This document shows positions 138-19,538 of a DNA stretch of 37,502 nucleotides, piece by piece (positions within the stretch are counted from its first letter, which is position 1; the number at the start of each line of letters is the position of its first letter). Below the pieces are notes generated by a model, which made no database searches, was not told where the DNA came from, and worked only from the letters and a program-made list of their open reading frames with translations. This stretch comes from Lachnospiraceae bacterium (GTDB lineage Bacteria > Bacillota > Clostridia > Lachnospirales > Lachnospiraceae). Both the position numbers and the translations under genes were made by a program. The stretch is from the NCBI GenBank assembly GCA_017482485.1, contig JAFUMV010000111.1:1-37502 (forward strand). The letters run 5' to 3'.

Positions 138-1964
138 TTATTCCACAGTCACGGATTTTGCCAGGTTTCTCGGTTTATCCACATCCAAGCCTCTGCCCAG
201 AGATACATAGTAGGAAAACAGCTGCAGCGGGATGATGGCAAGAGAGCCCATGAATGGATTTTCCGTTTCCGGCACATAGAGGACATAATCGGCACAATTT
301 TCCATGTCCTTGTGTTTCAGCGTAGTCAGTGCCATGACAAAGGCACCGCGGGTTTTCACCTCGACGATATTGCTGACTGTCTTGGGATAGAGAATGTCCT
401 GGGTAGCGATGGCCACAACCAGAGTGCCTTCCTCCATCAGCGAGATCGTGCCGTGTTTTAATTCGCCGGCTGCATAGGCTTCTGAGTGAATATAGGAAAT
501 TTCCTTCAATTTCAGGGAGCCTTCCAGAGAAATGGCATAGTCAATGCCTCTGCCCATGAAGAAAATATGCTCTGTTGCCAGATAGTGGTTTGCGAAGAAC
601 TGTATTTTTTCCTTCTGGGACAGCAGGGTTTCAATCTGATCAGGCAGCAGCTTCAGCGCATCCAGCAGTTTGGCAAACTGTTCCGGTGAGATAGTGCCCC
701 GAATCCGGGCAAATTTCATGGCCAGCATATAGAAGACAGCCAGCTGGCAGCTGTAGGCCTTTGTGGTTGCAACGGAGATTTCCGGTCCTGCCCAGGTGTA
801 GAGAACCGAATCAGCCTCTCTTGCGATGGAACTTCCTACCACGTTGACGATAGCCAGCACCTTGCTTTTGTGCTTTTTGGCATCCCGCAGGGCCGCCAGT
901 GAATCAGCGGTTTCTCCGGACTGACTGACGATGATTACCAGCGAGTCAGGGGTGTAAATGGGATTGCGGTAGCGGAATTCACTGGCAAGATCGGTTTCGG
1001 TGGGAATTCTTGCCAGGCTTTCCAGCACATATTTGCCGGTGACACCTGTGTGATAGGCGGAACCGCAGGCCACGATGGAAATATGTTTCAGATTTCTGAT
1101 TTCTTCTTCACTGAGGCCAAGTTCGCCCAGATCGATATCGTTGTTGCTGATGCGGGGAGAGATGGTATCCCGGACAGCTTTAGGCTGTTCATGAATTTCC
1201 TTGAGCATGAAATGCTCATAGCCCCCTTTTTCCGCAGCGTGGATATCCCAGTCGATGGTAACGGGCTGCTTTTCGATGGATTCGCCGTCGATGTTGAAGA
1301 AACGGGTGTGCTCGTTGGAAAGACAGGCAATTTCTTCATTTTCCATATAGTAAACATTTCTTGTATAATGCAGGATGGCGGGGACATCGGAAGCGATGAA
1401 TTTGCCGTCATCGCTGACGCCCACGATCAGCGGACTGTCCTTACGGGCAGCATAGATATGGTGCGGATGATCCAGAAACATGATGCCCAGCGCGTAAGAG
1501 CCCTCTACGCGGTGCATGACCTTTTCGATGGCATCCACAGGATCGCCATGATAATATTCGGTGAGCATATGGGCAAGCACCTCCGTGTCTGTTTCAGAGG
1601 CGAAATGATAGCCTTTCTTTTCCAGACGCTGTTTTAATTTCCCATAGTTTTCAATAATCCCGTTGTGAACGACCGCAATGGTATTTTCTTCGTTCATATG
1701 CGGATGCGCATTGGTATCGGAAGGGCAGCCATGAGTTGCCCAGCGGGTATGCCCCACACCGCAAAAACCGGGCATGGATGCGCCATGATGCGTCATCTCA
1801 TCCAGTACCCGCAGCCGTCCCATGGCCTTTTCCATATGTATTTTTTCACCGTCAAAAACGGCCACGCCGGCTGAATCATATCCCCGATACTCCAGTTTTG
1901 CCAGTCCATCCAGAATGATAGGAGCTGCCTGCTGTTTTCCGATATATCCTGCAATACCGCACAT
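138..1964 (-). CDS. glmS: Glutamine--fructose-6-phosphate aminotransferase (isomerizing)
   Basis: Makes glucosamine-6-phosphate from fructose-6-phosphate using the amide of glutamine, the first committed step to UDP-GlcNAc and peptidoglycan; cytoplasmic. The protein is 608 aa, the normal family length. It starts Met-Cys-Gly-Ile, so Cys2 is the N-terminal amidotransferase nucleophile. The class II glutaminase domain covers about residues 1-230 (HTRWATHG and HNGIIENY motifs), followed by two SIS sugar-isomerase domains (about 290-420 and 460-590, with SQSGETADS and a C-terminal PRNLAKSVTVE). The start has an AGGAGG ribosome binding site a few bases upstream. It is the last gene of the leftward group, with its own promoter and attenuator leader carrying the AAAGGC hexaloop seen before amt, glnN and pyrG. 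It ends in TAA. I see no glmS ribozyme; control here appears to be attenuation. Confidence 0.97.
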   Translation of the reverse strand: MCGIAGYIGKQQAAPIILDGLAKLEYRGYDSAGVAVFDGEKIHMEKAMGRLRVLDEMTHHGASMPGFCGVGHTRWATHGCPSDTNAHPHMNEENTIAVVHNGIIENYGKLKQRLEKKGYHFASETDTEVLAHMLTEYYHGDPVDAIEKVMHRVEGSYALGIMFLDHPHHIYAARKDSPLIVGVSDDGKFIASDVPAILHYTRNVYYMENEEIACLSNEHTRFFNIDGESIEKQPVTIDWDIHAAEKGGYEHFMLKEIHEQPKAVRDTISPRISNNDIDLGELGLSEEEIRNLKHISIVACGSAYHTGVTGKYVLESLARIPTETDLASEFRYRNPIYTPDSLVIIVSQSGETADSLAALRDAKKHKSKVLAIVNVVGSSIAREADSVLYTWAGPEISVATTKAYSCQLAVFYMLAMKFARIRGTISPEQFAKLLDALKLLPDQIETLLSQKEKIQFFANHYLATEHIFFMGRGIDYAISLEGSLKLKEISYIHSEAYAAGELKHGTISLMEEGTLVVAIATQDILYPKTVSNIVEVKTRGAFVMALTTLKHKDMENCADYVLYVPETENPFMGSLAIIPLQLFSYYVSLGRGLDVDKPRNLAKSVTVE

Positions 1965-1993
1965 AAATTGTTCCTCCTGTTTAAAAAGTACAT

Positions 1994-2045
1994 AAAAAAG
2001 GGCGCAATTACCGAAAGAATTCCCCCGATAAAGCGCCTTTGCTTT
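1994..2045 (-). promoter_or_regulatory. ANTAR-type P2 hairpin overlapping an attenuator, glmS leader
   Basis: Reading the minus strand, AAAGC-AAAGGC-GCTTT (2045 down to 2030) forms a 5-bp stem with a hexaloop having A at position 1 and G at position 4, the loop signature known for ANTAR-binding RNAs. The loop and 3' arm are also the 5' arm of a terminator: AAAGGCGC (2040-2033) pairs with GCGCC(C)TTT (2005-1997), with an inner helix between, then a run of Ts. The two folds are mutually exclusive. A convincing first hairpin (P1) is not obvious. The only A1/G4 candidate, TTCT-AAGGGT-AGAA at 2086-2073, overlaps the predicted promoter. Confidence 0.72.
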
Positions 2046-2085
2046 TTACATTATATTCAGTTTGAAAATGTTTTCTACCCTTAGA

Positions 2086-2113
2086 AGTATACACGAATCT
2101 GTCTGAAAGTCAA
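2086..2113 (-). promoter_or_regulatory. Sigma-A promoter for glmS
   Basis: On the minus strand TTGACT (2113-2108), a 16-base spacer and TATACT (2091-2086). The expected start near 2079 gives a leader of about 110 nt that contains the attenuator. Confidence 0.7.
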
Positions 2114-2156
2114 GAAGTTACTGTGAACTGTAGTAGTAGCACCGGTAAACAGCAAT

Positions 2157-2196
2157 AAAAAACCCCGTACCGCAAAGCCTCATGGGGTACGGGGAT
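2157..2196 (-). terminator. Intrinsic terminator after amt
   Basis: On the minus strand CCCCGTACC and GGTACGGGG (plus-strand positions 2163-2171 and 2186-2194) form a 9-bp stem followed by TTTTTT. It lies just past the amt stop at 2221 and separates amt from the glmS promoter. Confidence 0.88.
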
Positions 2197-2220
2197 ATTT
2201 GTTATGCCTGCGCGTTATCT

Positions 2221-3969
2221 TTATTCCACATCCTGCAGTGCTGCGAAGCCTTCTTCGCCGGTACGAACTTTTACGACCTGACTTACGTTGTATACGAAGA
2301 TCTTGCCATCGCCGATATGACCGGTGTAAAGCGTCTTCTTAGCTGCTTCAATCACATCTGCAACCGGAATCTTGCTGACAACAACTTCAATCTTAACCTT
2401 CGGAAGCAGAGTAGCATCGACTTCAACACCACGATACATGCTGCCTGCGCCTTTCTGGATACCACAGCCCATAACCTGTGTTACGGTCATGCCGGTTACA
2501 CCCAGATCGTTCATGGCTTTCTTGATCTTTTCGTAGCGGGACAGCTTTGCGATAATGACTACTTTGTAAATGCCGGTATCTGCAGCAGCAGGTGCCTGTG
2601 CAACTTTGACTGCAGCTGCCTTCTGCACTTCGGAAGCTTTCTCGTAATCGGAAGTTCCCAGATCTGTGTTTTCGTTTACATCCATTGTCATGGTGTTGGA
2701 AATATCCATGATGGAGAAGCCTGCATATGCGGAAGTAAGACCGTGCTCACAGGAATCCAGACCAACGATTTCTTCATCTTCAGAAACGCGAAGTCCAACA
2801 GTTGCCTTAATGATTAAGAAGCCGATTGTGATGGTAATGGCAGTCCATGTGATAACTGTGATAAAGCCAAGAAGCTGCAGACCAAGCTGTGTAAATCCGC
2901 CGCCGTAGAATAGACCAACAACGGTGTCGTTGCCGGGAGCAGTTGTGGTTGCAAACAGACCAACTGCGATGGTGCCCCAGATACCGTTGAAGAAGTGAAC
3001 GGCAACCGCACCAACCGGATCGTCAACATGTAATACATAATCCAAAAACCATACGCCGAATACGACTAAAAGACCGGCTACAATACCGATGATGGAAGCG
3101 CCCAGGGCATCCACCACATCACAGCCTGCTGTAACAGCTACCAGACCTGCCAAAGAAGCATTTAAGCACATGGAAACATCGGGCTTACCGTACTTGATCC
3201 AGGTAAAAATCATACAGGATACCGTTGCGAGGGAGGGAGCAATCGTTGTGGTAAGGAATACGGAAGCCAGCTGATCTACGCTCGTGCAGGCTGCACCGTT
3301 GAAACCGTACCAGCCAAACCACAGAATGAATACACCAAGGCATCCGATCGGCAGGTTGTGACCGGGGAATGCGTTTACTTTTACAACTTTGCCGTTTTTG
3401 TCTTTTTCAAACTTGCCGATACGTCCGCCCAGCATCTTTGCACCGATCAGTGCGCTGGTACCGCCTACCATGTGAATGGCACAGGAACCTGCAAAATCAT
3501 GGAAGCCAAGCTGTGCAAGCCAGCCGCCGCCCCAGATCCAGTGTGCTTCAATGGGGTAGATCAAAGCGGAAATAATTGCGGAATAAATACAATAGGATAA
3601 AAACTTTGTTCTTTCTGCCATGGCACCGGATACGATGGTCGCGGTGGTTGCGCAGAATACCAGGTTAAATACGAAACTGGAAAAATCAAAGTTTTCATAT
3701 GCTGTGAAGATATCAAGACCGGGTTTGCCGATAAAACCGAACATATCCTCACCAAGCAGCAGGCCGAAGCCGATCAGGATGAACACTACTGTACCGATAC
3801 AGAAGTCCATCAGGTTCTTCATCAGGATGTTGCCTGCGTTTTTTGCTCTGGTGAAACCTGTCTCCACCATTGCGAAACCTGCCTGCATCCAGAATACCAA
3901 TGCAGCACCAATCAAAAACCAGACACTGAATACTTCACCGGTTACGGCACTTAAAATTTCTTCTGTCAT
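2221..3969 (-). CDS. amt: Ammonium transporter with fused C-terminal PII domain
   Basis: Membrane ammonium channel of the Amt/AmtB family (residues about 10-400, around eleven membrane segments) joined to a complete PII (GlnB/GlnK) signal domain (about 467-575). The conserved twin-histidine pore residues correspond to His166 (in AGSCAIHMVGG) and His325 (in GAVAVHFFNG). The PII part shows GMTVTQVMGCG, YRGVEVD, LPKVKIEVV and TGHIGDGKIFV. An Ala/Val-rich linker (about 430-466) connects the two. In the T-loop, Tyr512 matches E. coli Tyr46, but the uridylylation site Tyr51 is Val517, so classical GlnD control is not expected. Usually the PII partner is a separate gene next to amtB; here the fusion guarantees one PII per channel subunit. 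The gene lies between purF and glmS with its own attenuator leader. Start chosen at ATG 3969 with GGAGG upstream. Length 582 aa. Confidence 0.95.
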   Translation of the reverse strand: MTEEILSAVTGEVFSVWFLIGAALVFWMQAGFAMVETGFTRAKNAGNILMKNLMDFCIGTVVFILIGFGLLLGEDMFGFIGKPGLDIFTAYENFDFSSFVFNLVFCATTATIVSGAMAERTKFLSYCIYSAIISALIYPIEAHWIWGGGWLAQLGFHDFAGSCAIHMVGGTSALIGAKMLGGRIGKFEKDKNGKVVKVNAFPGHNLPIGCLGVFILWFGWYGFNGAACTSVDQLASVFLTTTIAPSLATVSCMIFTWIKYGKPDVSMCLNASLAGLVAVTAGCDVVDALGASIIGIVAGLLVVFGVWFLDYVLHVDDPVGAVAVHFFNGIWGTIAVGLFATTTAPGNDTVVGLFYGGGFTQLGLQLLGFITVITWTAITITIGFLIIKATVGLRVSEDEEIVGLDSCEHGLTSAYAGFSIMDISNTMTMDVNENTDLGTSDYEKASEVQKAAAVKVAQAPAAADTGIYKVVIIAKLSRYEKIKKAMNDLGVTGMTVTQVMGCGIQKGAGSMYRGVEVDATLLPKVKIEVVVSKIPVADVIEAAKKTLYTGHIGDGKIFVYNVSQVVKVRTGEEGFAALQDVE

Positions 3970-4055
3970 AATTTTTTCCTCCTCATATTACTTTTTTATA
4001 GCCACAGGCTGTTATGTAAGTGGGGGTGCCTGAATGCTAACGGAATTGCTTTTTT

Positions 4056-4117
4056 GAAAATACAAAGGCGCGTCTTTTCTCAATCAGGGGGGAGAGAAAA
4101 GAACGCGCCTTTGCGTT
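4056..4117 (-). promoter_or_regulatory. ANTAR-type P2 hairpin overlapping an attenuator, amt leader
   Basis: On the minus strand AACGC-AAAGGC-GCGTT (4117 down to 4102) is a 5-bp stem with the AAAGGC hexaloop. Its loop and 3' arm belong to the terminator stem CAAAGGCGCG/CGCGCCTTTG (4113-4104 with 4072-4063), extended inward by a TCTTTTCT/AGAAAAGA helix and followed by a T-rich stretch (4063-4056). A possible P1 just upstream (TACTG/CAGTA arms, 4149 to 4129) has a seven-base loop starting AATG, with A1 and G4 kept, but it is imperfect. Confidence 0.72.
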
Positions 4118-4153
4118 TTCAGATATACTGCGTAACCATTACAGTAAAGGGGT

Positions 4154-4200
4154 GCGAACCGACCTTTTGAAACTTTGCAGGGGTTTTGAAGTCGGTCCGC
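4154..4200 (-). promoter_or_regulatory. Stable hairpin in the purF-amt gap
   Basis: GCGAACCGAC (4154-4163) and GTCGGTCCGC (4191-4200) pair over 10 bp with one G-U on the minus strand. The loop is 27 bases with weak internal pairing. No T-run follows on either strand, so it is not a standard terminator. It may stabilise the 3' end of purF or shape the amt leader. I found no convincing promoter for amt alone, so amt may be read from glnN-purF. Confidence 0.5.
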
Positions 4201-4268
4201 AAAGGGTGAGTAAAAAGGATAAACGGTTTTACTCTATTTAAAGAATGCCTGACAACCAAAGGGGAGAG

Positions 4269-5657
4269 TTATACAGGGTAGTGGTTGTCAAAACACGCTT
4301 TACAAAGTGGTAGGTCCCCGGTCATCTGTTTTAAATCTTCCAGTTTCATATAACCGAGGGAATCTGCGCCAATTTGTGCACAGATCTGTTTGGCTGTGTG
4401 GGAAGAGGCAATCAGCTGGTCGTTACTGGGAACATCGGTTCCGTAATAACACGGGTATAAAAAAGGAGGGGAGCTGATGCGTACGTGGACTTCCTTTGCT
4501 CCGGCTTTCCTGAGCATGCTGATGAGGTTTGCGATTGTGGTTCCGCGAACAATGGAGTCATCGATCAGGACGAGCCTTTTTCCTTTTACAACGCTTTCCA
4601 GGACGCTCAGCTTTAAATGGACAGCTGATTCACGCTCCCTTTGGGTGGGTTTGATGAAAGTCCTTCCCACATAACTGTTTTTATGAAATGCAAGGGCAAA
4701 CGGCAGGCCTGCAGCCTGTGCATATCCCATTGCAGCTGCCAGACCGGAGTCAGGAACTCCGGTGACAAGATCCGCTTCCACCGGATAAGAGTTTGCAAGT
4801 GCCCATCCGGCACGGATTCTTGCGTCATATATGTTGATTTTGTCCATCCTGGAATCCAGTCGGGCAAAATAGATGTATTCAAAAATACAGTGTGCATGCT
4901 TTTCCTGGGTCAGTCGGTAATCGGAATGAATGCCGTTTTTATCAATGGTGATGATTTCTCCCGGATTGATATCGCGGACAAATTCCGCATCCACAGCGGT
5001 GAGTGCACAGCTTTCTGAAGCGAGTATGTAGCTGTCATTGCGTTTCCCCAGGCAGAGCGGTTTTAATCCAAAGGGATCACGGACGCCGATCAGTTTTCTG
5101 GGACTCATGACGACGAGGGCGTAACCGCCTTTTATTTTACCGGCTGTTTCAAAAATCGCATCCTCCACACATTTTACATGAGGACGTTCCCTTGCGATAC
5201 AGTAGGCAATGACTTCGGAATCCGTAGTGGTATGAAATATCGCTCCGTTTTCTTCCATCTGCGCTCTGATTTCATCCGCATTGGTGATATTGCCGTTATG
5301 GGCCAATGCCAGTGTACCTTTTAAATAGTTCAAAACCAGAGGCTGTGCATTTTCGGGGATGCTTGCTCCTGTTGTGGAATAGCGGACATGACCGATGCCG
5401 ATATTGCCGTGCAGCAAACTTAAGGTGTCAGGGTGAAAAACCTCACTTACAAGTCCCATGGCTTTGTGAGAAGAAACATTCCCTCTGGGACCGAAGGTAT
5501 CACACACTGCGATGCCGGCTGCTTCCTGACCTCTGTGCTGCAATGCACACAAACCATAATATATGGAAGGAGCAGCGGCGCTGCCGTCGGGATTAAAAAT
5601 CCCGAACACGCCGCATGCCTCTTTTAGTTTATCATTTTCCAGTGCTTGTATGGACAT
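4269..5657 (-). CDS. purF: Amidophosphoribosyltransferase
   Basis: Catalyses the first committed step of purine synthesis, PRPP plus glutamine to phosphoribosylamine. The 462-aa protein begins with a 14-residue propeptide ending before Cys15 (EACGVFGIF), the nucleophile exposed by processing in the Bacillus-type enzyme. The glutaminase domain runs to about 230 (QHRGQEAAGIA, HNGNITN); the phosphoribosyltransferase domain shows the PRPP loop VLIDDSIVRGTT and the DSGLAAAMGYA region. Cysteines near the C-terminus (KQICAQIG and LCKACF) fit the Fe-S ligands of Bacillus PurF. It lies 56 bp behind glnN, so it is almost certainly co-transcribed and shares that gene's attenuator. Its location away from other pur genes and beside glutamine genes suggests grouping by glutamine use rather than by pathway. 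Start ATG at 5657; a GGAAGG-like ribosome site lies upstream. Confidence 0.96.
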   Translation of the reverse strand: MSIQALENDKLKEACGVFGIFNPDGSAAAPSIYYGLCALQHRGQEAAGIAVCDTFGPRGNVSSHKAMGLVSEVFHPDTLSLLHGNIGIGHVRYSTTGASIPENAQPLVLNYLKGTLALAHNGNITNADEIRAQMEENGAIFHTTTDSEVIAYCIARERPHVKCVEDAIFETAGKIKGGYALVVMSPRKLIGVRDPFGLKPLCLGKRNDSYILASESCALTAVDAEFVRDINPGEIITIDKNGIHSDYRLTQEKHAHCIFEYIYFARLDSRMDKINIYDARIRAGWALANSYPVEADLVTGVPDSGLAAAMGYAQAAGLPFALAFHKNSYVGRTFIKPTQRERESAVHLKLSVLESVVKGKRLVLIDDSIVRGTTIANLISMLRKAGAKEVHVRISSPPFLYPCYYGTDVPSNDQLIASSHTAKQICAQIGADSLGYMKLEDLKQMTGDLPLCKACFDNHYPV

Positions 5658-5713
5658 GATGTCTTTTCCTTCCTGATAAAGAGAATGCTGAGCATAATCA
5701 GCAGGAACCGCTT

Positions 5714-7810
5714 TTATACGGAGAAGAGCAGTGTCTCATAGTTCGGATAAGGAAGGATGCTGTCAGGCAGATATACCTCTGCGGCATCAGCTACGCTGCG
5801 GATGGCATCCATGTCAGCCAGAACTGTTTCATGATAGAATTTTGCAGCTTCAAGCATGTTGTCCAGACCTTCTGCTGTCTTTGTATCAGCTTCCAGCTTT
5901 TCTTCAGCTTCATAGAGCGCTTCATAGTAACCTGCAAGCTTTGTGAGCAGCTTGGTTTCTGCAACGCAGGGAAGATCAGCAACAGCCTTTTTGCCGGAAA
6001 TGGAGCAGGTAACTTCATCTGTGTACTCCATCAGAGCGGGTAAAAATTCGCGGCGGATCATATCCTGCAGAGTCTTTGCTTCGATGTGAAGTGTCTTGCA
6101 GTAGTTCTCCAGCAGAATTTCATATCTGGAGAAGATTTCGCCTTCTGTAAAGATCTTATGGCTGGTGAACAGCTTGACATTTTTTTCAGCAATAAAGCTG
6201 GGCAGTGCTTCGGGCGTGGACTTTAAGTTGTAAAGACCGCGTTTTTCGGCTTCCTCAACCCACTCATCCGTGTAGCCGTTGCCGTTGAAGATGATCTTCT
6301 TGTGCTTTAAGATAGCGCGTTTTACAAGAGCGTGAACCGCTTCATCCATCTTGTCAGCAGGGGTATCTTTCAGTTCATCATAGAACTGGCTAAGGGCCTC
6401 TGCCACTGCGGTATTAAGTACGATATTGGGACCGGCAACGGAAATGGAGGAACCCAGCATACGGAATTCAAATTTATTGCCCGTAAAAGCAAAAGGTGAG
6501 GTACGGTTTCTGTCGGTATTATCCTTAAAGAAATGAGGAAGTACGGCTGCTCCGGTTTCCATCTGCACTTTCTGATGCTTTCCGAAGAAAGTATCGTTTT
6601 CGATGGAATCTAAAACTGCTGTCAGTTCATCGCCCAGGAAAATGGATACGATTGCCGGAGGTGCTTCGTTCGCGCCAAGTCTGTGATCGTTGCCTGCGCT
6701 TGCTACGGAAACACGCATCAGATCTGCATATTCATCAACTGCCTTGATGACAGCCATCAAAAATACCAGAAACTGAATATTCTCAGCAGGAGTGCGGCCG
6801 GGATCCAGAAGGTTTACGCCGGTGTTTGTAACCATGGACCAGTTGTTGTGTTTGCCGGAACCGTTGATGCCATCGAAAGGTTTTTCGTGAAGCAGGCAAA
6901 CCAGTCCGTGTTTGTCAGCAACTTTTTTCATGATTTCCATGGTCAGCTGGTTGTGATCAACCGCGATGTTTGCAGTATCGAAAATGGGTGCCAGCTCATG
7001 CTGGGAAGGAGCCACTTCGTTATGTTTGGTTTTGGCAGGAATGCCCAACTTCCAGAGCTCTTCATCCAGATCATGCATGAAAGCTGCTACGCGGGGCTTT
7101 AAAGCGCCGAAGTAATGATCTTCCATTTCCTGACCCTTGGGAGGCATTGCACCCAGCAGCGTTCTGCCGGTAAAGATCAGGTCTTTTCTCTGTTCGTAAA
7201 GATCCTTATTGATCAGGAAATATTCCTGTTCGGGTCCGATTGTGGTGGAAACACCGGTCACATCGGTCTGGCCCAGCAGATTCAGGATTCTGGTAGCTGC
7301 TTTATTCAAGGCCTCCATGGAACGAAGCAGAGGAGTTTTCTTATCCAGCGCTTCGCCGCTGTAGGAGCAGAAAGCGGTGGGAATATATAAGGTTCCATCC
7401 TTGATGAATGCGGGAGAGGTAGGATCCCATGCTGTATAGCCTCTTGCCTCAAAGGTTGCTCTTAAGCCGCCGGAGGGAAAGCTGGAAGCATCGGGTTCGC
7501 CCTTTACCAGTTCCTTGCCGGAGAAATCCATGATAATCTGGCCATCGCCGATGGGGCTGATGAAGCTGTCATGCTTTTCTGCGGTGAAACCTGTCATGGG
7601 CTGGAACCAGTGGGTGAAATGTGTTGCACCGTTTTCAACAGCCCACTCCTTCATCGCAACTGCAACGGAGTTTGCAACGTCCAGTTCCAGGTGAGTACCG
7701 TTTTCGATGGTTTTCTTTAATGCCTTATAAATGTCTTTCGGAAGCTTGTCGCGCATCACCTTATCGTTGAATACGAGACTGCCGTAGAGTTCGGGAATAC
7801 TTTTTGCCAT
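5714..7810 (-). CDS. glnN: Glutamine synthetase type III
   Basis: ATP-dependent synthesis of glutamine from glutamate and ammonium. The 698-aa length is that of the GSIII class, much longer than GSI (about 440-470 aa). Class features visible are [14 protein letters not shown] (about 316-329), [28 protein letters not shown] and [10 protein letters not shown], all in the catalytic region, plus a helical C-terminal tail after about 600. It is first in a leftward unit with purF. Its start ([14 protein letters not shown]) has an AGGAG site. The window also encodes a GSI (glnA at 16174), so this organism has two unrelated-class glutamine synthetases in one regulated cluster. The leader contains a promoter-proximal ANTAR-type hairpin/terminator and a second folded segment. 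Confidence 0.97.
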
Positions 7811-7834
7811 AACTTTTTCTCCTTTCGATTTTCA

Positions 7835-7909
7835 TGTCCGGTTCGCCGGCCTACCCTGTTGTCGGTGCCAGATATCAGATCAAGGATCTGCCTGGCTCGC
7901 AGCCGGACA
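7835..7909 (-). promoter_or_regulatory. Folded leader segment between the attenuator and glnN
   Basis: TGTCCGG (7835-7841) and CCGGACA (7903-7909) are perfect complements that can close a branched fold. Inside are a hairpin GCCAG...CTGGC (7867-7871 with 7892-7896) topped by AGATC-AAG-GATCT (7877-7889), and a CCGG-CGAA-CCGG-type stem near the closing helix. It lies downstream of the terminator in the glnN transcript. I do not recognise a known riboswitch class. Confidence 0.5.
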
Positions 7910-7952
7910 AACAATGGATGTTACGCTTGGCGCATCATCTCTTTGTTAAAAC

Positions 7953-7995
7953 GAAAAAGGCGCCCTGGAATCATCTTCCAAAGCGCCTTTGCTTT
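7953..7995 (-). promoter_or_regulatory. ANTAR-type P2 hairpin overlapping an attenuator, glnN leader
   Basis: On the minus strand AAAGC-AAAGGC-GCTTT (7995 down to 7980) is identical to the glmS element. Its loop and 3' arm form the terminator stem AAAGGCGC/GCGCCTTT (7990-7983 with 7963-7956), extended inward by TGGAA-GATGA-TTCCA and followed by TTTTTCG. The predicted transcription start is only a few bases upstream of this hairpin, leaving no room for a P1 hairpin in RNA from that promoter. Confidence 0.75.
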
Positions 7996-8004
7996 ATGCA
8001 TCGT

Positions 8005-8033
8005 AGGATACACGTCAAAAAGAAAAATGTCAA
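8005..8033 (-). promoter_or_regulatory. Sigma-A promoter for glnN-purF
   Basis: Minus strand TTGACA (8033-8028), 17-base spacer, TATCCT (8010-8005). The start is expected near 7998, about three bases before the P2 hairpin. Confidence 0.75.
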
Positions 8034-8051
8034 GAGGTTTTTAAAAAAAAT

Positions 8052-8073
8052 ATTGTACTGATTTTTGTACAAT
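8052..8073. promoter_or_regulatory. Inverted repeat between divergent glnN and pyrG promoters
   Basis: ATTGTAC (8052-8058) and GTACAAT (8067-8073) are perfect arms separated by eight bases. The site lies upstream of both -35 boxes (8028-8033 leftward, 8112-8117 rightward), the position expected for a shared operator. No regulator can be assigned from sequence. Confidence 0.45.
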
Positions 8074-8111
8074 GCAATAGTATGCCTTTCATGGGAAAAT
8101 AAAAAAAAGAC

Positions 8112-8140
8112 TTTACAAATGAAAATAAATAGTTTAAACT
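8112..8140 (+). promoter_or_regulatory. Sigma-A promoter for the pyrG-gltBD operon
   Basis: TTTACA (8112-8117), 17-base spacer, TAAACT (8135-8140). The expected start near 8147 leaves about 20 nt before the paired hairpins. Confidence 0.7.
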
Positions 8141-8166
8141 ATACCGCATGAAAAAATGATTTGTTT

Positions 8167-8236
8167 TTTGAATAGCGTTGAATTGACAAAGGCGTCAAAG
8201 TACCTGTGAATACAGGTTTCTTTGACGCCTTTTTTA
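8167..8236 (+). promoter_or_regulatory. ANTAR P1-P2 tandem hairpins and attenuator, pyrG leader
   Basis: P2 is TTGAC-AAAGGC-GTCAA (8183-8198): five perfect pairs and the same AAAGGC hexaloop. Directly upstream TTTGA-ATAGCG-TTGAA (8167-8182) can form P1, with two wobble pairs and again A1 and G4 in a six-base loop. P2 overlaps the terminator 5' arm AAAGGCGTCAAAG (8188-8200), which pairs with CTTTGACGCCTTT (8220-8232); an inner CCTGT/ACAGG stem and a T-run to 8236 complete it. This is the best match to the known two-hairpin ANTAR target in the window. Beyond it, at 8240-8275, two more small stems precede the ribosome site. Confidence 0.78.
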
Positions 8237-8317
8237 TACGATAGGAAAGTCCTCCGGACTTCCCATCGCGTAAAACGCGCACTATTTTCACTTTGCAGGG
8301 AACATAAGGAGGAGAGT

Positions 8318-9952
8318 ATGGCAGTAAAATACGTCTTTGTTACAGGCGGCGTAGTGTCCGGCCTGGGAAAAGGAATCACCGCAGCATCGTTGGGCCGTTT
8401 GCTCAAAGCCAGAGGCTATCATGTGACGATGCAGAAGTTTGATCCTTATATCAATGTAGATCCCGGTACGATGAACCCCATACAGCACGGCGAAGTGTTC
8501 GTGACGGATGACGGTACCGAAACGGACCTGGATCTGGGACATTACGAGCGCTTTATCGATGAAAGTCTCGACTTCAATTCAAATGTGACTACCGGTAAGA
8601 TTTACTGGTCTATACTGAATAAGGAGCGCCACGGTGACTACGGCGGCGGTACGGTACAGGTCATCCCTCATATTACCAACGAAATTAAATCCCGTTTTTA
8701 TAAAGAAAAATCGCCGGATGAAATGACAATTTCCATCATTGAGGTGGGCGGCACGGTAGGGGATATCGAAAGTCAGCCGTTTCTGGAAGCCATCCGTCAG
8801 TTTCAGGCGGAAAAAGGAAGAGAAAATGCGATCCTGATTCAGGTGACGCTGATTCCTTACCTGAAAGCTTCCGGTGAAATGAAGACAAAGCCCACTCAGA
8901 TGAGCGTGAAATCCTTACAGAGCATGGGAATCTGGCCCGACATTTTGGTATGTCGTTCCGATTATCCGGTGGACGATAAGATGAAAGAAAAAATTGCACT
9001 GTTTTGTAATGTGAAAAAAGAGCATGTGCTGCAGAATCTGGATGCTCCTTCTTTGTATGAAGTGCCCCTGATGCTGGAAGAAGAGCACCTGGCGCAGGCT
9101 GTTTGTGAATGCCTTCATATTCCCTGTCCGAAACCGGATTTGAGTGACTGGATGGAAATGGTGGACAACCTTCATCATTCCACAAAAACAATTACCATCG
9201 GTCTGGTGGGAAAATATGTGGCGCTCCATGATGCTTATTTAAGCGTTGCAGAAGCGTTAAGACACGGCGGCATTGCCAATCGGACACAGGTGAACATCCG
9301 CTGGATCGATGCGGAGGAATTGATTCCGGAAAATCTGGAAGAATATTTACATGATGTGGACGGTATTTTGGTCCCCGGCGGATTTGGACAGAGAGGTACA
9401 GAAGGAAAGATTCTGGCGATCAGTTATGCCAGAAAGCATAAAATTCCGTTTTTGGGACTGTGCCTGGGCATGCAGCTGGCCATTGTGGAATTTGCCAGAA
9501 ACGTGGCGGGCCTTCCCAAGGCTGCCAGCATAGAACTGGAACCTGATACGCCCGATCCGGTGATTGCGCTGATGCCGGAACAAAACGGTGTGGAAAATCT
9601 GGGCGGTACCTTAAGGCTGGGGGCTTATCCCTGTATAATTAAGGAAGAAAGTCTTGCATATGATTTATATGGAACTGCTCAGATTTCAGAAAGACACAGA
9701 CATCGGTATGAAGTAAACAATGATTATCGAGATATTTTGGAGAAAAACGGCATGGTGCTTTCCGGACTTTCACCGGATGGCCGAATCGTAGAAATGATCG
9801 AGTTAAAAGACCATCCTTTCTTTATCGCCACACAGGCCCATCCGGAATTCAAATCCAGACCAAATCTCGCTCATCCTTTGTTTAAGGGACTGATTAAAGC
9901 CGCAGTCGCGTACGAGGATGCCAGACAGGTCGCTGATCGAAATGTCGTGTAA
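8318..9952 (+). CDS. pyrG: CTP synthase
   Basis: Converts UTP to CTP with glutamine as amino donor. The 544-aa protein has an N-terminal synthetase domain ([18 protein letters not shown]-loop near residues 8-24; [11 protein letters not shown]) to about 270 and a C-terminal class I glutaminase (PGGFGQRG, then GLCLGMQLA with the catalytic Cys, and a late His-Pro-Glu in [10 protein letters not shown]). I chose ATG 8318 because AGGAGGAGAG lies at ideal distance and the protein then begins [11 protein letters not shown] like its family; an upstream in-frame extension is not family-like. It heads a rightward operon with gltB 23 bp downstream. Leader attenuation in Bacillus pyrG uses CTP-driven slippage at a G-run; this leader has a different architecture, the ANTAR-type hairpins. 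Confidence 0.97.
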
Positions 9953-9975: not shown

Positions 9976-12900
9976 ATGAGCCAGACACAAATGCAGCAAA
10001 TGAAAGAACAGGGACTTTACAGCCCCACTTTTGAACATGACAACTGCGGTATCGGTGCCGTAGTGAATATAAAAGGAAAAAAGAGCCATCAGATCGTGGC
10101 CGATGCACTCAAAATCGTGGAAAATCTGGAGCACCGCGCCGGCAAGGATGCGGAAGGAAAAACCGGTGACGGTGTTGGTATTCTGACCCAGATTTCCCAT
10201 TGTTTTTTCAAAAAGGTGTGTGCCCAGAGCGGGATTTTGATCGGAGAAGAAAGAGAATACGGTATCGGTATGTTTTTCTTCCCGCAAAATGAGTTAAAAC
10301 GCAGCCAGGCCAAAAAGATGTTTGAAATCATCGTGGAAAAAGAAGGCATGGAATTTTTGGGATGGAGAGATGTGCCTACAGCGCCTCAGGTTCTTGGCCA
10401 TAAAGCCAGAGAGTGTATGCCTGTGATCTGTCAGGGCTTTGTGAAAAAGCCTGAATCCGTGGAAAAAGGTCTGGATTTTGACCGCAAGCTCTATGTGGTT
10501 CGTCGGGTATTTGAACAGAGCAATGACAACACCTATGTGCCCTCTCTTTCCAGCAGAACAATTGTATATAAAGGTATGTTTTTGGTGGATCAGCTGCGCA
10601 CTTTCTTTTTGGACCTGCAGGATGCTGATTACGATTCCGCAATCGCCATTGTGCACTCCCGTTTTTCCACCAACACAAATCCCAGCTGGGAGCGCGCTCA
10701 TCCGAACCGTTTCATCGTGCATAACGGCGAAATTAACACCATCAAGGGCAATGCGGATAAGATGCTGGCCCGGGAAGAAACCATGTCCGCAACAAAGCTG
10801 TCCGCAGACGATATGACAAAGGTGCTGCCCGTGGTGAACACCAATGGATCTGACTCTGCCATGCTGGATAACACGCTGGAATTTCTGGTGATGAGCGGCA
10901 TGGAACTGCCTCTGGCGGTAATGATCACCATTCCGGAGCCCTGGGCGCACAACGATACCATCTCCCAGGAAGGACGCGATTTTTATCAGTATTACGCAAC
11001 CATGATGGAACCCTGGGACGGCCCTGCCTCCATTCTGTTTTCCGACGGCGATCTGATGGGGGCTGTGCTGGACAGAAACGGTCTGCGTCCTTCCCGCTAC
11101 TATATCATGGATGATGACAGGCTGATTCTTTCCTCTGAAGTAGGGGTGCTGGATTTGCCTGCGGATCACATTTTGAAAAAGGAACGTCTTCATCCCGGAA
11201 AAATGCTGCTTGTCAATACCGTAAAAGGCTGCGTGCTTTCCGATGAAGAAATCAAAGAATCTTATGCGGACAAAGAGCCCTACGGCGAGTGGCTGGATTC
11301 CAACCTGGTGGAACTGGGCGACCTGAAAATCCCCAACGAAAAGATTCCTTCTTTTACAAAAGAGCAGCGTGCCCGTCAGCAGAAAGCTTTCGGCTATGCG
11401 TATGAAGAATACAGAAACTCCATCTATACCATGGCATTAAACGGCACCGAACAGATCGGCGCCATGGGCGTGGATACGCCGATTGCGGTATTGTCCAAGG
11501 AATATCAGCCGCTGTTTTATTACTTCAAACAGCTGTTTGCACAGGTAACCAATCCGCCGATCGATGCGGTTCGTGAAAAAATCGTAACTTCCACCACCGT
11601 ATATGTGGGTAAGAACGGTAATCTCCTGGAAGAAAGACCTGAAAACTGTCAGGTATTAAAAATCAACAATCCGATCCTCACCGATCTGGATCTGTTAAAA
11701 ATCAAAACCATGAAAAAGCCCGGTTTCAAGGTGGCTGTGGTGCCGATTATTTTCTACAAGAGCACACCTATGGAGAGAGTGCTGGACCATCTGTTTGTGG
11801 AAGTTGACAAGGCCTACAGAGACGGTGCCAATATCCTGGTGCTTTCCGACAGAGGGGTGGATGAAAATCACGTTGCAATCCCTTCCCTGCTGGCAGTTTC
11901 CGCAGTGCATAAGCACCTGGTACAGACGAAAAAATGTACCGCCCTTTCCATCATTCTGGAATCCGGCGAACCCCGTGAAGTGCACCATTTTGCTGCGCTT
12001 CTGGGATATGGCGCCAGCGCGGTGAATCCTTATCTGGCCCATTCTACCATCGCAGAACTGGTGGAGGACGGTCTTTTGAACAAAGACTATTATGCCGCAG
12101 TGGAAGACTATGACCATGCCATTTTGCAGGGCATTGTAAAAATTGCTTCCAAGATGGGGATTTCCACCATTCAGTCTTATCAGGGCAGCAAAATCTTTGA
12201 GGCAATCGGCATTTCCAAAGAAGTGATTGATCAATACTTCCCCGGCACGGTCAGCCGGGTGGGGGGCATTACCTTAAAGGACATCGCAGCACAGACAGAT
12301 GCCCAGCATTCCAGGGCTTTTGATCCGCTGGGCTTGGCCACCGATCTGACCCTGTCCTCCTTTGGCCGTCACAAAATGCGCAGTCAGGGTGAGGAACACC
12401 GATACAATCCGCAGACCATTCACCTTCTGCAGCAGGCAACAAGAGAGGGCGATTACGAAAAATTCAAAGAGTATACGAAGCTCATTGACGGAGAAAATAC
12501 AGGTTATTTAAGAAGCCTGATGGATTTTAACTATCCGGAAGAAGGGGTGGCGCTTGATGAAGTGGAAAGCGTGGAATCCATTGTAAAACGCTTCAAAACC
12601 GGCGCTATGTCCTATGGTTCCATTTCCGAAGAAGCCCATGAGGCCCTGGCGATTGCCATGAATCACCTTCACGGCAAGTCCAACAGCGGTGAAGGCGGTG
12701 AAAGCGATGAACGTCTGGAATCGGCGGGCACAGACCATGACAGAAGCTCCGCCATCAAGCAGGTGGCGAGCGGACGTTTCGGCGTGACCAGCCGCTATCT
12801 GGTGAGCGCAAAGGAAATTCAGATCAAAATGGCACAGGGCGCAAAGCCCGGAGAAGGCGGACATCTGCCCGCGAAAAAGGTATACCCCTGGATCGCCAAA

Positions 12901-14541
12901 ACCCGTCACTCCACACCCGGCGTGAGCCTGATTTCCCCTCCACCGCATCATGATATCTATTCCATCGAAGATCTGGCACAGCTGATCTACGATTTGAAAA
13001 ATGCAAATAAATATGCACGTATTTCCGTGAAACTGGTTTCGGAAGCCGGTGTGGGCACCGTCGCTGCCGGCGTGGCAAAGGCGGGCGCACAGGTGGTACT
13101 GATTTCCGGCTATGACGGCGGGACCGGCGCAGCGCCTTTAAGCTCCATCCACAATGCAGGGCTTCCCTGGGAGCTTGGACTTGCGGAAACCCATCAGACA
13201 CTGCTGGCAAACGGCTTAAGAAATCGCGTCATGATCGAGACAGACGGTAAGCTCATGAGCGGCCGTGATGTGGCGATTGCTGCACTTTTGGGCGCGGAAG
13301 AATTTGGATTTGCCACTGCTCCCCTGGTAACCTTAGGCTGTGTGATGATGCGTGTCTGCAACCTGGATACCTGCCCCATGGGCATTGCAACCCAGAATCC
13401 GGAGCTGAGAAAGCGCTTTATCGGTAAGCCCGAATATGTGGAAAACTTCATGATTTTCATCGCGAAACAGCTTCGGGAATATATGGCAAAACTGGGTGTG
13501 CGCACTGTGGATGAAATGGTTGGCCGCACGGATCTGTTAAAGAAAAAAGAAGGTCTGACCGGACGGGATGCTAAGGTGGATTTGAGCCGCATTTTAACCG
13601 GTGCGCCTGTGGCGGACAGAAAATTAAGCGTCTTTGATCCTGCAAGCGTATATGACTTTAAACTGGAAACCACAAAAGATGAAGCGGTTCTTTTAAAGAA
13701 AAAGGATTTGCAGAATGCCATTGCAAACGGTACCAAGAAAGAATTCAGCGTGAAACTGACCAATATCGACAGAACCTTCGGAACCCTGCTTGGTGCAGAG
13801 ATCACCAGAAAGCATCCGGAAGGTCTGCCGACAGACACCATCAGGATTAACTGCGAGGGTGCCGGCGGACAGAGCTTCGGCGCATTTTTGCCCAAAGGAC
13901 TGACACTTTCTCTGTGCGGCGATTCCAACGATTACTTTGGCAAAGGCTTATCCGGCGGCAAGCTGGTGGTTTATGCGCCTGAAAATGCAAAATTTGTGCC
14001 TCATGAAAACATTATTATCGGCAACGTTGCACTCTATGGTGCGACAAGCGGCGAAGCTTATATTGCAGGTGTGGCAGGCGAACGTTTCTGCGTGAGAAAC
14101 TCCGGCGCCACCGCAGTGGTGGAAGGTGTCGGCGAGCATGGCTGTGAATACATGACCGGCGGCCGTGCAGTCGTTTTAGGTCCTACAGGAAAGAACTTCG
14201 CAGCCGGCATGAGCGGAGGCGTGGCCTATGTGCTGGATGAGAAAAACTGCCTGTACCGCAACCTGAACAAGGAAATGGTACTGATGGAAAAGGTGGAAAC
14301 CAAGTTCGATCAGGAAGAATTAAGGAGCATGATCGAAGCCCATGTGGCAAATACAGGCTCTGTAAAAGGTAAGGAAGTGCTGGAAAATTTCAAAGAATAT
14401 CTGCCGAAGTTTAAAAAGATTATTCCCGGGGATTATAAGAAACTGATGCAGCTGTCTTCTCAGTTTGAAGAACAGGGCATGAGCAGAGAAGAAGCGCAGA
14501 TTGAAGCATTTTATGCGAGCACAGCCGGAGGGAAAGAGTAA
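9976..14541 (+). CDS. gltB: Glutamate synthase large subunit (GOGAT alpha)
   Basis: Transfers the glutamine amide to 2-oxoglutarate, giving two glutamates. Length 1521 aa, normal for the alpha chain. A 23-residue propeptide precedes the nucleophile Cys24 (DNCGIGAVV). Order: glutaminase domain (about 24-420, with HSRFSTNTNPSW and HNGEINT), central domain, FMN/synthase domain (about 790-1180, GEGGESDERL, KPGEGGHLPAKKV, GYDGGTGAAPL) and the 3Fe-4S cysteine cluster (CNLDTCPMGIA, about 1130-1142), then the right-handed beta-helix domain with Gly-rich repeats (about 1230-1480). The gene follows pyrG by 23 bp and its stop overlaps the gltD start (TAATG), implying translational coupling. Confidence 0.97.
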   Translation: MSQTQMQQMKEQGLYSPTFEHDNCGIGAVVNIKGKKSHQIVADALKIVENLEHRAGKDAEGKTGDGVGILTQISHCFFKKVCAQSGILIGEEREYGIGMFFFPQNELKRSQAKKMFEIIVEKEGMEFLGWRDVPTAPQVLGHKARECMPVICQGFVKKPESVEKGLDFDRKLYVVRRVFEQSNDNTYVPSLSSRTIVYKGMFLVDQLRTFFLDLQDADYDSAIAIVHSRFSTNTNPSWERAHPNRFIVHNGEINTIKGNADKMLAREETMSATKLSADDMTKVLPVVNTNGSDSAMLDNTLEFLVMSGMELPLAVMITIPEPWAHNDTISQEGRDFYQYYATMMEPWDGPASILFSDGDLMGAVLDRNGLRPSRYYIMDDDRLILSSEVGVLDLPADHILKKERLHPGKMLLVNTVKGCVLSDEEIKESYADKEPYGEWLDSNLVELGDLKIPNEKIPSFTKEQRARQQKAFGYAYEEYRNSIYTMALNGTEQIGAMGVDTPIAVLSKEYQPLFYYFKQLFAQVTNPPIDAVREKIVTSTTVYVGKNGNLLEERPENCQVLKINNPILTDLDLLKIKTMKKPGFKVAVVPIIFYKSTPMERVLDHLFVEVDKAYRDGANILVLSDRGVDENHVAIPSLLAVSAVHKHLVQTKKCTALSIILESGEPREVHHFAALLGYGASAVNPYLAHSTIAELVEDGLLNKDYYAAVEDYDHAILQGIVKIASKMGISTIQSYQGSKIFEAIGISKEVIDQYFPGTVSRVGGITLKDIAAQTDAQHSRAFDPLGLATDLTLSSFGRHKMRSQGEEHRYNPQTIHLLQQATREGDYEKFKEYTKLIDGENTGYLRSLMDFNYPEEGVALDEVESVESIVKRFKTGAMSYGSISEEAHEALAIAMNHLHGKSNSGEGGESDERLESAGTDHDRSSAIKQVASGRFGVTSRYLVSAKEIQIKMAQGAKPGEGGHLPAKKVYPWIAKTRHSTPGVSLISPPPHHDIYSIEDLAQLIYDLKNANKYARISVKLVSEAGVGTVAAGVAKAGAQVVLISGYDGGTGAAPLSSIHNAGLPWELGLAETHQTLLANGLRNRVMIETDGKLMSGRDVAIAALLGAEEFGFATAPLVTLGCVMMRVCNLDTCPMGIATQNPELRKRFIGKPEYVENFMIFIAKQLREYMAKLGVRTVDEMVGRTDLLKKKEGLTGRDAKVDLSRILTGAPVADRKLSVFDPASVYDFKLETTKDEAVLLKKKDLQNAIANGTKKEFSVKLTNIDRTFGTLLGAEITRKHPEGLPTDTIRINCEGAGGQSFGAFLPKGLTLSLCGDSNDYFGKGLSGGKLVVYAPENAKFVPHENIIIGNVALYGATSGEAYIAGVAGERFCVRNSGATAVVEGVGEHGCEYMTGGRAVVLGPTGKNFAAGMSGGVAYVLDEKNCLYRNLNKEMVLMEKVETKFDQEELRSMIEAHVANTGSVKGKEVLENFKEYLPKFKKIIPGDYKKLMQLSSQFEEQGMSREEAQIEAFYASTAGGKE

Positions 14542-16025: not shown

Positions 16026-16173
16026 TGCATGCACTGCAGCGGTTCTGAGCCGTTGTCTGGCAATAAGAAAAGAAAAAGGAGGCAGGCTGTCTTTTTGGGC
16101 TGACCTTCGCATAAAATGATGCGGAGGAAAGCAAAGAGCGATGGTCCTGCCTTATTCCGAGGGAGAGTTATTC

Positions 16174-17513: not shown

Positions 17514-18062
17514 ATGAGCAGCATAATAGTTGTTTTGCCAAAGATGGAAGATGCAAAACAGATCCGCAGCATTTTGAGCCGGCGCGGATTGGATACTGCT
17601 GCACTCTGTACGACGGCCTCCGGCGTTCTTTCAAAAGTCCACCAGCTGGACAGCGGTGTGGTGATCTGCAGCTACAGGCTGCCGGATATGCACTATACCC
17701 AGCTGGCACAATATCTGCCCGATTATTTTGAAATGCTTTTGCTTTCTTCTGCCGCTGAGGTGGGAAACTGTCCCCGGGGCATGATCGCCCTGACTTATCC
17801 GATCAAACCTCATGATCTGGTGAGCACGGTGGAGATGATGCTTGCGCAGCTGGAGCGGCGTCTGAAAAAGAAAAAGACGATGCCCAAAAAGCGGACAGAG
17901 CAGGAGCAGAACTATATCAATAATGCGAAGTGGGTGTTGATGGAAAGAAACCATATGTCCGAAGAGGAGGCATTTCGCTATATTCAAAAATGCAGCATGG
18001 ATTCCGGCACAAATATGGTAGAGACGGCACAGATGATCCTGCTGTTGATCTATGAAGGCTGA
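17514..18062 (+). CDS. ANTAR-domain RNA-binding antiterminator with degenerate receiver
   Basis: Predicted transcription antiterminator of the AmiR/NasR/EutV type, 182 aa. Residues 1-115 resemble a response-regulator receiver, but the phosphoacceptor position is Ser53 (VVICSYRLPDM), the N-terminal acidic pair is replaced by Leu-Pro (IVVLPKMEDA), and only the conserved Lys98 (YPIKPHDL) remains. A basic linker (about 114-127) leads to the ANTAR domain (about 130-178): NNAKWVLMERNHMSEEEAFRYIQK and a final hydrophobic helix. ANTAR domains bind tandem hairpins with A1/G4 hexaloops; four leaders in this window carry such loops. The gene sits 14 bp after glnA, so it is itself in the regulon. The degenerate receiver suggests that the input is a ligand or protein contact, possibly the PII domain of the Amt fusion. 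That last link is inference. Confidence 0.92.
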   Translation: MSSIIVVLPKMEDAKQIRSILSRRGLDTAALCTTASGVLSKVHQLDSGVVICSYRLPDMHYTQLAQYLPDYFEMLLLSSAAEVGNCPRGMIALTYPIKPHDLVSTVEMMLAQLERRLKKKKTMPKKRTEQEQNYINNAKWVLMERNHMSEEEAFRYIQKCSMDSGTNMVETAQMILLLIYEG

Positions 18063-19395: not shown

Positions 19396-19451
19396 GAAAA
19401 TTCTTTGGGCGATGCATAATGGCTGAAGTGCCTGGCACAGCGCATATGTGC

Positions 19452-19538
19452 ATGAAGCTGCGGCGTACTGCGGATGAAGCCGTGCGCGCTGCGGATGAAG
19501 CCATGGCGCGCTGCGGATGAAGCTGCGGTGTACTGCGC
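19452..19538. repeat. Short GC-rich tandem repeats downstream of dapL
   Basis: CTGCGGATGAAGC occurs three times (19468-19480, 19489-19501, 19511-19523), at 21- and 22-base spacing. The block is bordered by two near-identical copies of ATGAAGCTGCGG(C/T)GTACTGCG (19452-19472 and 19518-19538, one difference). Both reading frames on either strand are open for part of it, but nothing resembles a gene start with a ribosome site. Confidence 0.7.

Follow-up and report, generated by a model that had tools for sequence, protein, structure and literature searches.

Putative single-hexaloop attenuators, probably read by an ANTAR protein, in the glutamine island of a Lachnospiraceae bacterium and in its relatives

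Why should four leaders within one glutamine gene island carry small hairpins with the identical six-base loop AAAGGC, and what might read them? The leaders, which precede glmS, an ammonium transporter gene (amt), glnN and pyrG, lie in a stretch of 37,502 nucleotides (nt) from a Lachnospiraceae bacterium (assembly GCA_017482485.1, contig JAFUMV010000111.1, positions 1-37,502, forward strand). This whole stretch is called the window here; its source genome measures 3.48 Mb and is ~90% complete. Comparison with the sequences of relatives leads us to propose, with a probability of roughly 0.77, that the leaders are single-hexaloop and often 5′-terminal attenuators whose reader is the product of the ANTAR gene at 17514, and that they form a regulon for the glutamine economy. 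An earlier note on this DNA had described four AAAGGC hairpins with stems of 5 base pairs (bp), and each of them was found in its place, together with the terminator that it overlaps:

2030..2045, minus strand: glmS leader hairpin, AAAGC[AAAGGC]GCTTT (sequence inspection and detector; covariance-model match with E 0.002, the site being itself a model seed)
4102..4117, minus strand: amt leader hairpin, AACGC[AAAGGC]GCGTT (sequence inspection and detector)
7980..7995, minus strand: glnN leader hairpin, AAAGC[AAAGGC]GCTTT (sequence inspection and detector; a sixth, wobble pair lengthens the stem; predicted to form the 5′ end of its RNA)
8183..8198, plus strand: pyrG leader hairpin, TTGAC[AAAGGC]GTCAA (sequence inspection and detector)
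1992..2040, minus strand: intrinsic terminator with U-tract of the glmS leader, using the hexaloop and the 3′ arm (-19.3 kcal/mol)
4057..4113, minus strand: terminator-like hairpin of the amt leader with a weak U-tract, the weakest of the four (-31.6 kcal/mol)
7950..7990, minus strand: terminator with U-tract of the glnN leader (-23.9 kcal/mol)
8188..8238, plus strand: terminator with U-tract of the pyrG leader (-28.7 kcal/mol)

All four loops have A at position 1 (A1) and G at position 4 (G4) and are closed by a C:G pair. As the note had also claimed, the intrinsic terminator overlaps the hexaloop in every case, with the loop and the 3′ arm doubling as the 5′ arm of the terminator. The hexaloop hairpins alone have calculated stabilities of -2.9 (glmS), -4.5 (amt), -2.9 (glnN) and -3.3 kcal/mol (pyrG), and because the terminators are far more stable, termination is the expected default state.

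A detector that asks for at least four Watson-Crick pairs around any A..G.. hexaloop and for an overlapping terminator, and that is given no AAAGGC as input, returned exactly these four elements on both strands of the 37.5 kb, compared with a mean of 0.3 (maximum 2) in 20 dinucleotide shuffles. One alternative is chance, with AAAGGC as the mere foot of strong A-tract terminators. It draws on the bare hexamer, which is common, and on the many terminators of the source genome that begin with AAAGGC. The bare hexamer was dropped as a signal, since its 43 occurrences in the window compare with only 30.5 expected (43 was reached by 1 of 100 shuffles); this mild excess arises because AAAGGC pairs with GCCTTT at the terminator foot, and the real signal is the 5-bp stem. 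The source genome contains 51 AARGGC...GCCTTTT places, 30 of which were examined, the pyrG leader being among the other 21, and the stem amounts to 0-3 bp in 28 of these 30. The two longer stems are that of the glnN leader and one that is G-U-rich and lacks the C:G closing pair (L034). With the rarity of the element in shuffles and the covariation of the stems over genera, chance is refuted for the set as a whole and retains a negligible probability, although it could still hold for a single leader, for example that of glmS.

The earlier note took compensatory changes around a constant loop as strong evidence for a protein-read hairpin. Four non-homologous leaders are thin evidence when taken alone, and it is the leaders of relatives that provide the covariation. 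An alignment of 25 seed leaders has 40 cells in which both sides are changed (13.5 when shuffled) and a covariation score of 0.80 versus 0.285, and slid-helix controls on the same alignment score at most 0.277. As many seeds had been selected for having a stem, a stem-blind set of glnN and glnA leaders was built, chosen by loop motif and terminator only. At least three of the four outer pairs are present in 35 of its 37 elements, and together with the four window hairpins the set scores 0.54 versus 0.28 after shuffling, a value reached by 0 of 500 shuffles. Since the 5′ arm is not part of the terminator core, the covariation argues for the small hairpin itself.

The loop and its closing pair point to the class of reader. 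We cite the published systems from four articles (PMC8934654, PMC7496416, PMC8164766 and PMC3369931), which also served for the assessment of novelty. The consensus of NasR obtained by SELEX (systematic evolution of ligands by exponential enrichment) is a C:G-closed hexaloop with A1 and G4 (PMC7496416). The fit of A1 and G4 to ANTAR rules, asserted in the note, holds in 4/4 window leaders, and the closing pair also agrees with the rules for EutV and NasR. Beyond the window we considered the best 95 of the listed matches to the covariance model in the family, the window's own excluded; five of these leaders are model seeds, and the set is made up of 29 loci and two groups of places, of 60 and 6. 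Across the 95, the stem sequences differ in ways that preserve pairing. G4 and the C:G closing pair are present in 95/95 of them and A1 in 89/95; the remaining six have G at loop position 1, although A1 matters in EutV and NasR targets.

Co-occurrence points in the same direction. The ANTAR domain is present as a single copy in the source genome. In a family sample of 150 genomes, one per genus, an ANTAR gene is found in 136; of the 29 best-scoring family loci examined, 27 have it directly behind glnA. The family and class names of the relatives are assigned here from gene content. The covariance model, R1, includes the structure and was built on seeds that all have the closing pair and G4, which biases its matches towards these features. 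It matches (E ≤ 0.1) in 93 of the 136 ANTAR genomes versus 1 of the 14 without ANTAR (p = 1e-5), and in 84 of 125 versus 1 of 14 when the 11 seed genomes are left out (p = 2e-5). At class level, matches with E ≤ 0.01 occur in 22 of 81 ANTAR genomes, the source genome included, versus 1 of 66 others (p = 6e-6). In both the family and the class search, ~37-38 candidates per genome were scored out of some hundreds, which makes absences soft. A 28-protein ANTAR profile matched only weakly and in part (best E 2.5e-4) in 6 of the 14 ANTAR-less family genomes and in the genus genome G003; none of these matches spans the ANTAR domain.

Leaders not chosen by the model were sampled as well. For this, pyrG proved a poor marker, as it was matched in only 3 of 15 ANTAR-less genomes, and glnN was used instead. 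Thirty ANTAR genomes were taken in roughly even steps through the list of ANTAR genomes before their leaders were seen, with the best glnN of each. The element precedes glnN in 23 of these 30 versus 2 of 15 genomes without ANTAR (p = 8e-5), the chance rate being 3.4% per glnN leader. In 12 of the 15 ANTAR-less genomes the CTP synthase of the window has no match (E ≤ 1e-30), which is unexpected, since this gene is usually universal, and may stem from divergence, from gaps or from the first look of the search.

Another RNA-binding protein or a small molecule might read the hairpin, with ANTAR merely a neighbour. This possibility could accommodate the hairpins kept before glnN in two ANTAR-less genomes and the loops that begin with G, and genomes without ANTAR may have further differences. 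It is set against the co-occurrence in family and class, the position of the ANTAR gene after glnA, the agreement of loop and closing pair with rules measured for EutV and NasR, and the absence of any Rfam family at gathering score in the window (near the leaders, only sub-threshold matches at permissive E-values were returned). On balance we judge it quite improbable, and the ANTAR protein, which the earlier note had suggested, is by comparison the likely reader.

The gene of this protein was confirmed by its Pfam domain:

17514..18062, plus strand: ANTAR protein, 182 amino acids (PF03861, 65.1 bits; gathering cut-off 27.3)

The protein consists of an N-terminal receiver-like part, a basic linker and a C-terminal ANTAR domain; among solved proteins, EutV is the closest in sequence (6wsh/6ww6, E 2e-8). 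The phospho-acceptor position, assigned by the Dxx(M/L)P pattern, is occupied by Gly, Ser, Ala or Thr in all 28 aligned family proteins and by Asp in none, and Response_reg has no match in the window protein at E ≤ 1e-5. The segment preceding the ANTAR domain holds a mean of 8.8 Lys/Arg in ~21 residues, compared with 4 in a 21-residue stretch of EutV taken from the alignment. Because a recognisable phosphorylation site is absent, the signal would probably be received through contact with a partner, for which the adjacent glutamine synthetase or the P-II domain would be the likeliest candidates. AmiR and NasT are ANTAR regulators controlled by a partner protein, not by their own phosphorylation, but their targets and partners differ from those considered here. 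Their leaders are of the dual-hexaloop type (PMC7496416).

The eut leader has two hexaloops, P1 and P2, joined by a 5-12 nt linker, and deletion of P1 ablates induction (PMC3369931). According to the EutV structure study, one hexaloop is the minimal binding site, and P1 is still essential for antitermination against the clock of the moving polymerase (PMC8934654). The earlier note, correct on A1, G4 and the terminator overlap, had missed that published antiterminators need two hexaloops. In the window only one is seen: a C:G-closed upstream hexaloop was not found in any of the four leaders, and amt and glnN lack an upstream candidate of any kind. Two A..G.. candidates without C:G closing exist, TTTGA[ATAGCG]TTGAA directly upstream at pyrG and TTCT[AAGGGT]AGAA 42 nt upstream at glmS. 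Both were rejected as P1 for want of the closing pair, and the pyrG leaders of congeners have no A..G.. hexaloop with a stem of at least 4 bp at that place.

These two candidates are nevertheless what ordinary dual-hexaloop ANTAR attenuators would offer if their second hexaloop had become degenerate or lay further upstream. Searched over 70 nt upstream of the hairpin, 4 of the 95 family leaders have a C:G-closed A..G.. hexaloop with at least three pairs, versus 1.4 in shuffles, and this minority (L159, L160, L173, L210) may be dual; a further case is L289, the only one among 26 class-wide leaders. When C:G closing is not required, the number of upstream hexaloops does not stand out from that in shuffles (23 versus 18.2, maximum 28), and a second hexaloop sought downstream was found in 6 of the 95 versus 2.9 (maximum 7). 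Moreover, the predicted transcription start leaves too little space for a P1 in 56 of the 95 leaders, and we regard the dual-hexaloop explanation as unlikely. In three glnN leaders (L242, L245, L248), a tandem pair of hexaloop elements precedes the single gene. The glnN leader of G063 (L233), a genome in which the ANTAR protein was not found, has a dual arrangement, GGCGC[AATGGC]GTGCC followed by AACGC[AAAGGG]GCGTT and a terminator.

The spacing of promoter-like sequences underlies the predicted start. A sigma-70-type site of at least 9/12 lies upstream of 74 of the 95 leaders versus 13.7 in shuffles, and in 56, versus 2.7 in shuffles, a gap of 5-12 nt separates the end of the -10 box from the stem. 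The usual distance from the -10 box to the transcription start is 6-8 nt; at this spacing the hairpin is thus predicted to lie at or near the 5′ end of the RNA and to open the transcript. Among the 26 class-wide leaders, a manual count gave 13 with such a site at 5-12 nt. The promoter-like sequences in the window are as follows; the amt leader has only a weak candidate.

8005..8033, minus strand: glnN, TTGACA-17-TATCCT (consensus; 9 nt before the hairpin)
2086..2113, minus strand: glmS, TTGACT-16-TATACT (consensus only; 40 nt before the stem)
2050-2077, minus strand: glmS, second candidate, TAGAAA-16-TATAAT (consensus only; 4 nt before the stem)
8112..8140, plus strand: pyrG, TTTACA-17-TAAACT (consensus; 42 nt before the hairpin; same or similar site in congeners)

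Over positions 1960-8320 of the window, promoter-like sites number 8, with 8.4 in shuffles.

In the mechanism that we propose, RNA polymerase would first make the short C:G-closed hairpin with a loop of the form AANGGC, which would often make up the initial 16-20 nt of the RNA. In the default state the terminator would capture the loop and the 3′ arm, and transcription would end within ~50 nt. The active ANTAR protein would keep the hairpin closed and thereby block the terminator, so that the operon could be read. One hexaloop would suffice, the upstream recruiting hexaloop P1 of the EutV system being absent in nearly all leaders examined, and it may be, speculatively, that the basic linker compensates for this missing first hairpin. 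The basis of the model in the sequence is the hairpin, its overlap with the terminator, covariation, promoter-like spacing, absence of P1, co-occurrence and the target genes; from it we infer binding, the direction of control, start sites, the extent of the operons and the signal. Since the direction of control is not readable from sequence, ANTAR binding might act in reverse, favouring termination or blocking the start of translation. This is very unlikely in our view, as the loop and 3′ arm are common to the terminator in all four window leaders and a closed hairpin should for that reason oppose termination.

In the source genome the circuit would comprise glmS, the fused amt-P-II gene, glnN-purF and the run pyrG-gltB-gltD-glnA-ANTAR, of which the ANTAR gene is the last member. 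Lying in the predicted pyrG operon, the ANTAR gene would have its own operon activated by its product. The gene names given previously were confirmed by Pfam and NCBIfam:

138..1964, minus strand: glmS (TIGR01135)
2221..3969, minus strand: ammonium transporter (amt) fused to a P-II domain (PF00909 + PF00543; by Pfam, Amt at residues 16-412 and P-II at residues 469-572)
4269..5657, minus strand: purF (TIGR01134; starts 56 nt after glnN)
5714..7810, minus strand: glnN, type III glutamine synthetase (PF12437)
8318..9952, plus strand: pyrG, CTP synthase (TIGR00337)
9976..14541, plus strand: gltB, glutamate synthase large subunit (NF008730)
14541..16025, plus strand: gltD, glutamate synthase small subunit (TIGR01317)
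16141..17499 (start possibly 16174), plus strand: glnA, type I glutamine synthetase (TIGR00653)

Inspection of the window for hairpins did not reveal a leader element of its own for purF, which probably rides on the glnN leader. At glmS, the glmS ribozyme or another Rfam leader was not found at gathering score, and a putative ANTAR-type attenuator stands in that place. Elsewhere in the window, three imperfect 34-nt direct repeats and an 18-nt repeat pair (19447-19545 and 19598-19686) occupy a long gap between a dapL-like gene and the next gene.

Genes of the same kind follow the element in relatives. The downstream gene was identified through the best same-strand tblastn match or, failing that, as the first long open reading frame (ORF), some of which were tested by Pfam/NCBIfam; for L164, L167 and L181 (asnB), L173 (ABC), L216 (Lrp), L092 on the minus strand (carA) and L165 (PPDK-like), the name comes from an N-terminus that resembles that of a tested protein. 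The 95 leaders precede glnN (30), glnA (13), gltB (9), amt (8), pyrG (7), asnB (4), glnK-amt (3) and purF (3, one of them behind an inserted ORF). Two each precede carA, dapL, glnQ-type ABC transporters, Lrp and a PPDK-like protein, and one each gdhA, argD, an amino-acid-binding protein, an amino-acid permease, a possible tgt and an unidentified gene; two leaders end at contig ends. Thus, in 87 of the 95, the gene behind the leader codes for an enzyme, a transporter or a P-II protein that serves the metabolism of glutamine, glutamate, ammonium or amino acids; with the two Lrp regulators included, the number is 89. As asnB, purF, carA, pyrG, gltB and glmS encode glutamine amidotransferases, the circuit covers the spending of glutamine as well as its supply.

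Some of these loci have features of their own. In L183, L184 and L192, ~500 nt separate the element from amt, and a 112-residue, P-II-like ORF fills this space in L183 and L192; the genes that we take to be of P-II type in these three loci are so named from likeness or from position. The ORF between the element and purF in L136 is transposase-like and resembles IS200/IS605. In L155, L165 and L280 the element precedes a large protein with a PPDK_N domain, identified by Pfam in L155 and by similar N-termini in the others. The proteins behind L209 in the family and L297 in the class are similar and share ...NxLLARYGVKFGIYK... near the N-terminus; no NCBIfam family was found for that of L209. Behind the element of L269 (G082:C1:3155725-3156927), a type III glutamine synthetase frame contains six in-frame TGA codons, which may reflect either a pseudogene or TGA recoding.

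Within the genus and the source genome, 150 of 342-912 candidates were scored per genome (150/701 for the source genome), and absences are again soft. The model at E ≤ 1 matched four sites in the source genome, all of them model seeds within the window, and no others. An ANTAR orthologue and model matches are each present in 12 of 13 genus genomes, and the exception, G003, has neither. The notion of one clustered circuit is supported by these four sites and by the island being contiguous in two further genus genomes (L016, L020); in other genomes it gives way, with model matches spread over many contigs. The glnN leaders examined in congeners have the same hairpin at a constant 9-nt gap to the -10 box. 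The amt hairpin is identical in G009 (L020) and reduced to 3 bp around AAAGGT in G011 (L016). The pyrG hairpins change in both arms and at loop positions 3, 5 and 6 and keep G4, with G at position 1 in one congener (L020). The glmS hairpin is conserved in G002 (L114).

Several observations weigh against our proposal. The glmS hairpin is not conserved in the congeners G011 and G009. G003 has no pyrG match and only a 53% match for glnN, so that its whole glutamine island may be missing, which makes it weak evidence for co-occurrence. The model has no match in 43 of the 136 ANTAR genomes, and the element is missing before the best glnN of 7 of the 30 sampled, while one ANTAR-less family genome, G104, has a weak match (E 0.097). 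The ANTAR-less genomes G109 and G063, which keep the hairpin before glnN, are either real counter-examples or relics. In the class, the element is present in G194, where no ANTAR gene was found; a congener of this genome, G266, contains the two together. Genomes without ANTAR may also be distinct in further respects, and the co-occurrence statistics ignore the relatedness of the genomes. The 95/95 counts for G4 and the C:G pair are partly built in, because the model seeds share them. Covariation is not uniform by all measures: the count of double-change pairs is unexceptional (231 of 500 shuffles for the seeds, 409 of 500 for the stem-blind set), as is the number of pair types (105 of 500 and 20 of 500), and the outermost pair fails in 17 of the 36 distinct rows of the stem-blind set. 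Finally, transcription starts are those predicted from promoter consensus, and within the window glnN alone has a clear promoter at 5′-terminal spacing, the distance being 42 nt at pyrG and 40 or 4 nt at glmS and the amt site being weak; the unclosed upstream hexaloops of pyrG and glmS belong here as well. As to the genes at the class exception, the element precedes a glutamine-amidotransferase-like gene both in G194 (L286) and in G266 (L296), and in G266 the ANTAR gene lies ~6.6 kb downstream of the element on the same strand.

Parts of this system have precedents. The eut leaders of Enterococcus faecalis share the A1 and G4 hexaloop, the conserved closing pairs, the overlap of P2 with the terminator and antitermination by an ANTAR protein (PMC3369931, PMC8934654), but use P1 and P2, whereas here one hexaloop is seen, often at the predicted 5′ end of the RNA. 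In contrast to EutV, which is phosphorylated, the ANTAR protein described here lacks the phospho-Asp and has the basic linker. The nasF leader of Klebsiella, read by NasR, has the same C:G-closed A1/G4 hexaloop; there, two hairpins are needed for full affinity (~1 uM versus ~12 uM for one hairpin), and NasR, unlike the present protein, has a nitrate-sensing NIT domain (PMC7496416). That ANTAR proteins control nitrogen genes was already known, as the note had acknowledged: in 2012, ANTAR RNAs were predicted on P-II, ammonium transporter and glutamine/glutamate synthesis genes of Desulfotomaculum and others (PMC3369931). The targets are thus alike, but those were found with a dual-hairpin model, and single-hexaloop leaders would tend to be missed by it. 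The terms 'amidotransferase' and 'CTP synth' are absent from the main text of PMC3369931, the supplements of which may list single-loop cases. Searches of open-licence PMC articles found no report that describes single-hexaloop attenuators or regulation by ANTAR proteins in Lachnospiraceae. The ANTAR gene of NitR also directly follows glnA in Clostridium acetobutylicum; the same searches brought up nothing on it. As far as the literature consulted shows, the new elements are that a single, often 5′-terminal hexaloop is the rule across a large group and that the circuit extends to enzymes which spend glutamine.

With less assurance, we lean towards a wider statement, namely that Clostridia at large possess ANTAR antiterminators with one hexaloop at the transcript start, a non-phosphorylated reader whose basic linker replaces P1, and glutamine supply, glutamine spending and the reader's own operon under one switch. 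The EutV structure study closes with a call for more bioinformatic and experimental work on single hexaloops (PMC8934654), and the leaders described here constitute many natural candidate single-hexaloop attenuators with a recurrent geometry. If the proposal is true, the recruiting hairpin, which has been held essential, would be dispensable, and the synthetases, glutamate synthase, ammonium uptake and the amidotransferases of purine, pyrimidine, CTP, asparagine and amino-sugar synthesis would stand under one RNA switch. The leaders suggest a way in which the supply of glutamine may be adjusted to demand in a large group of Clostridia.

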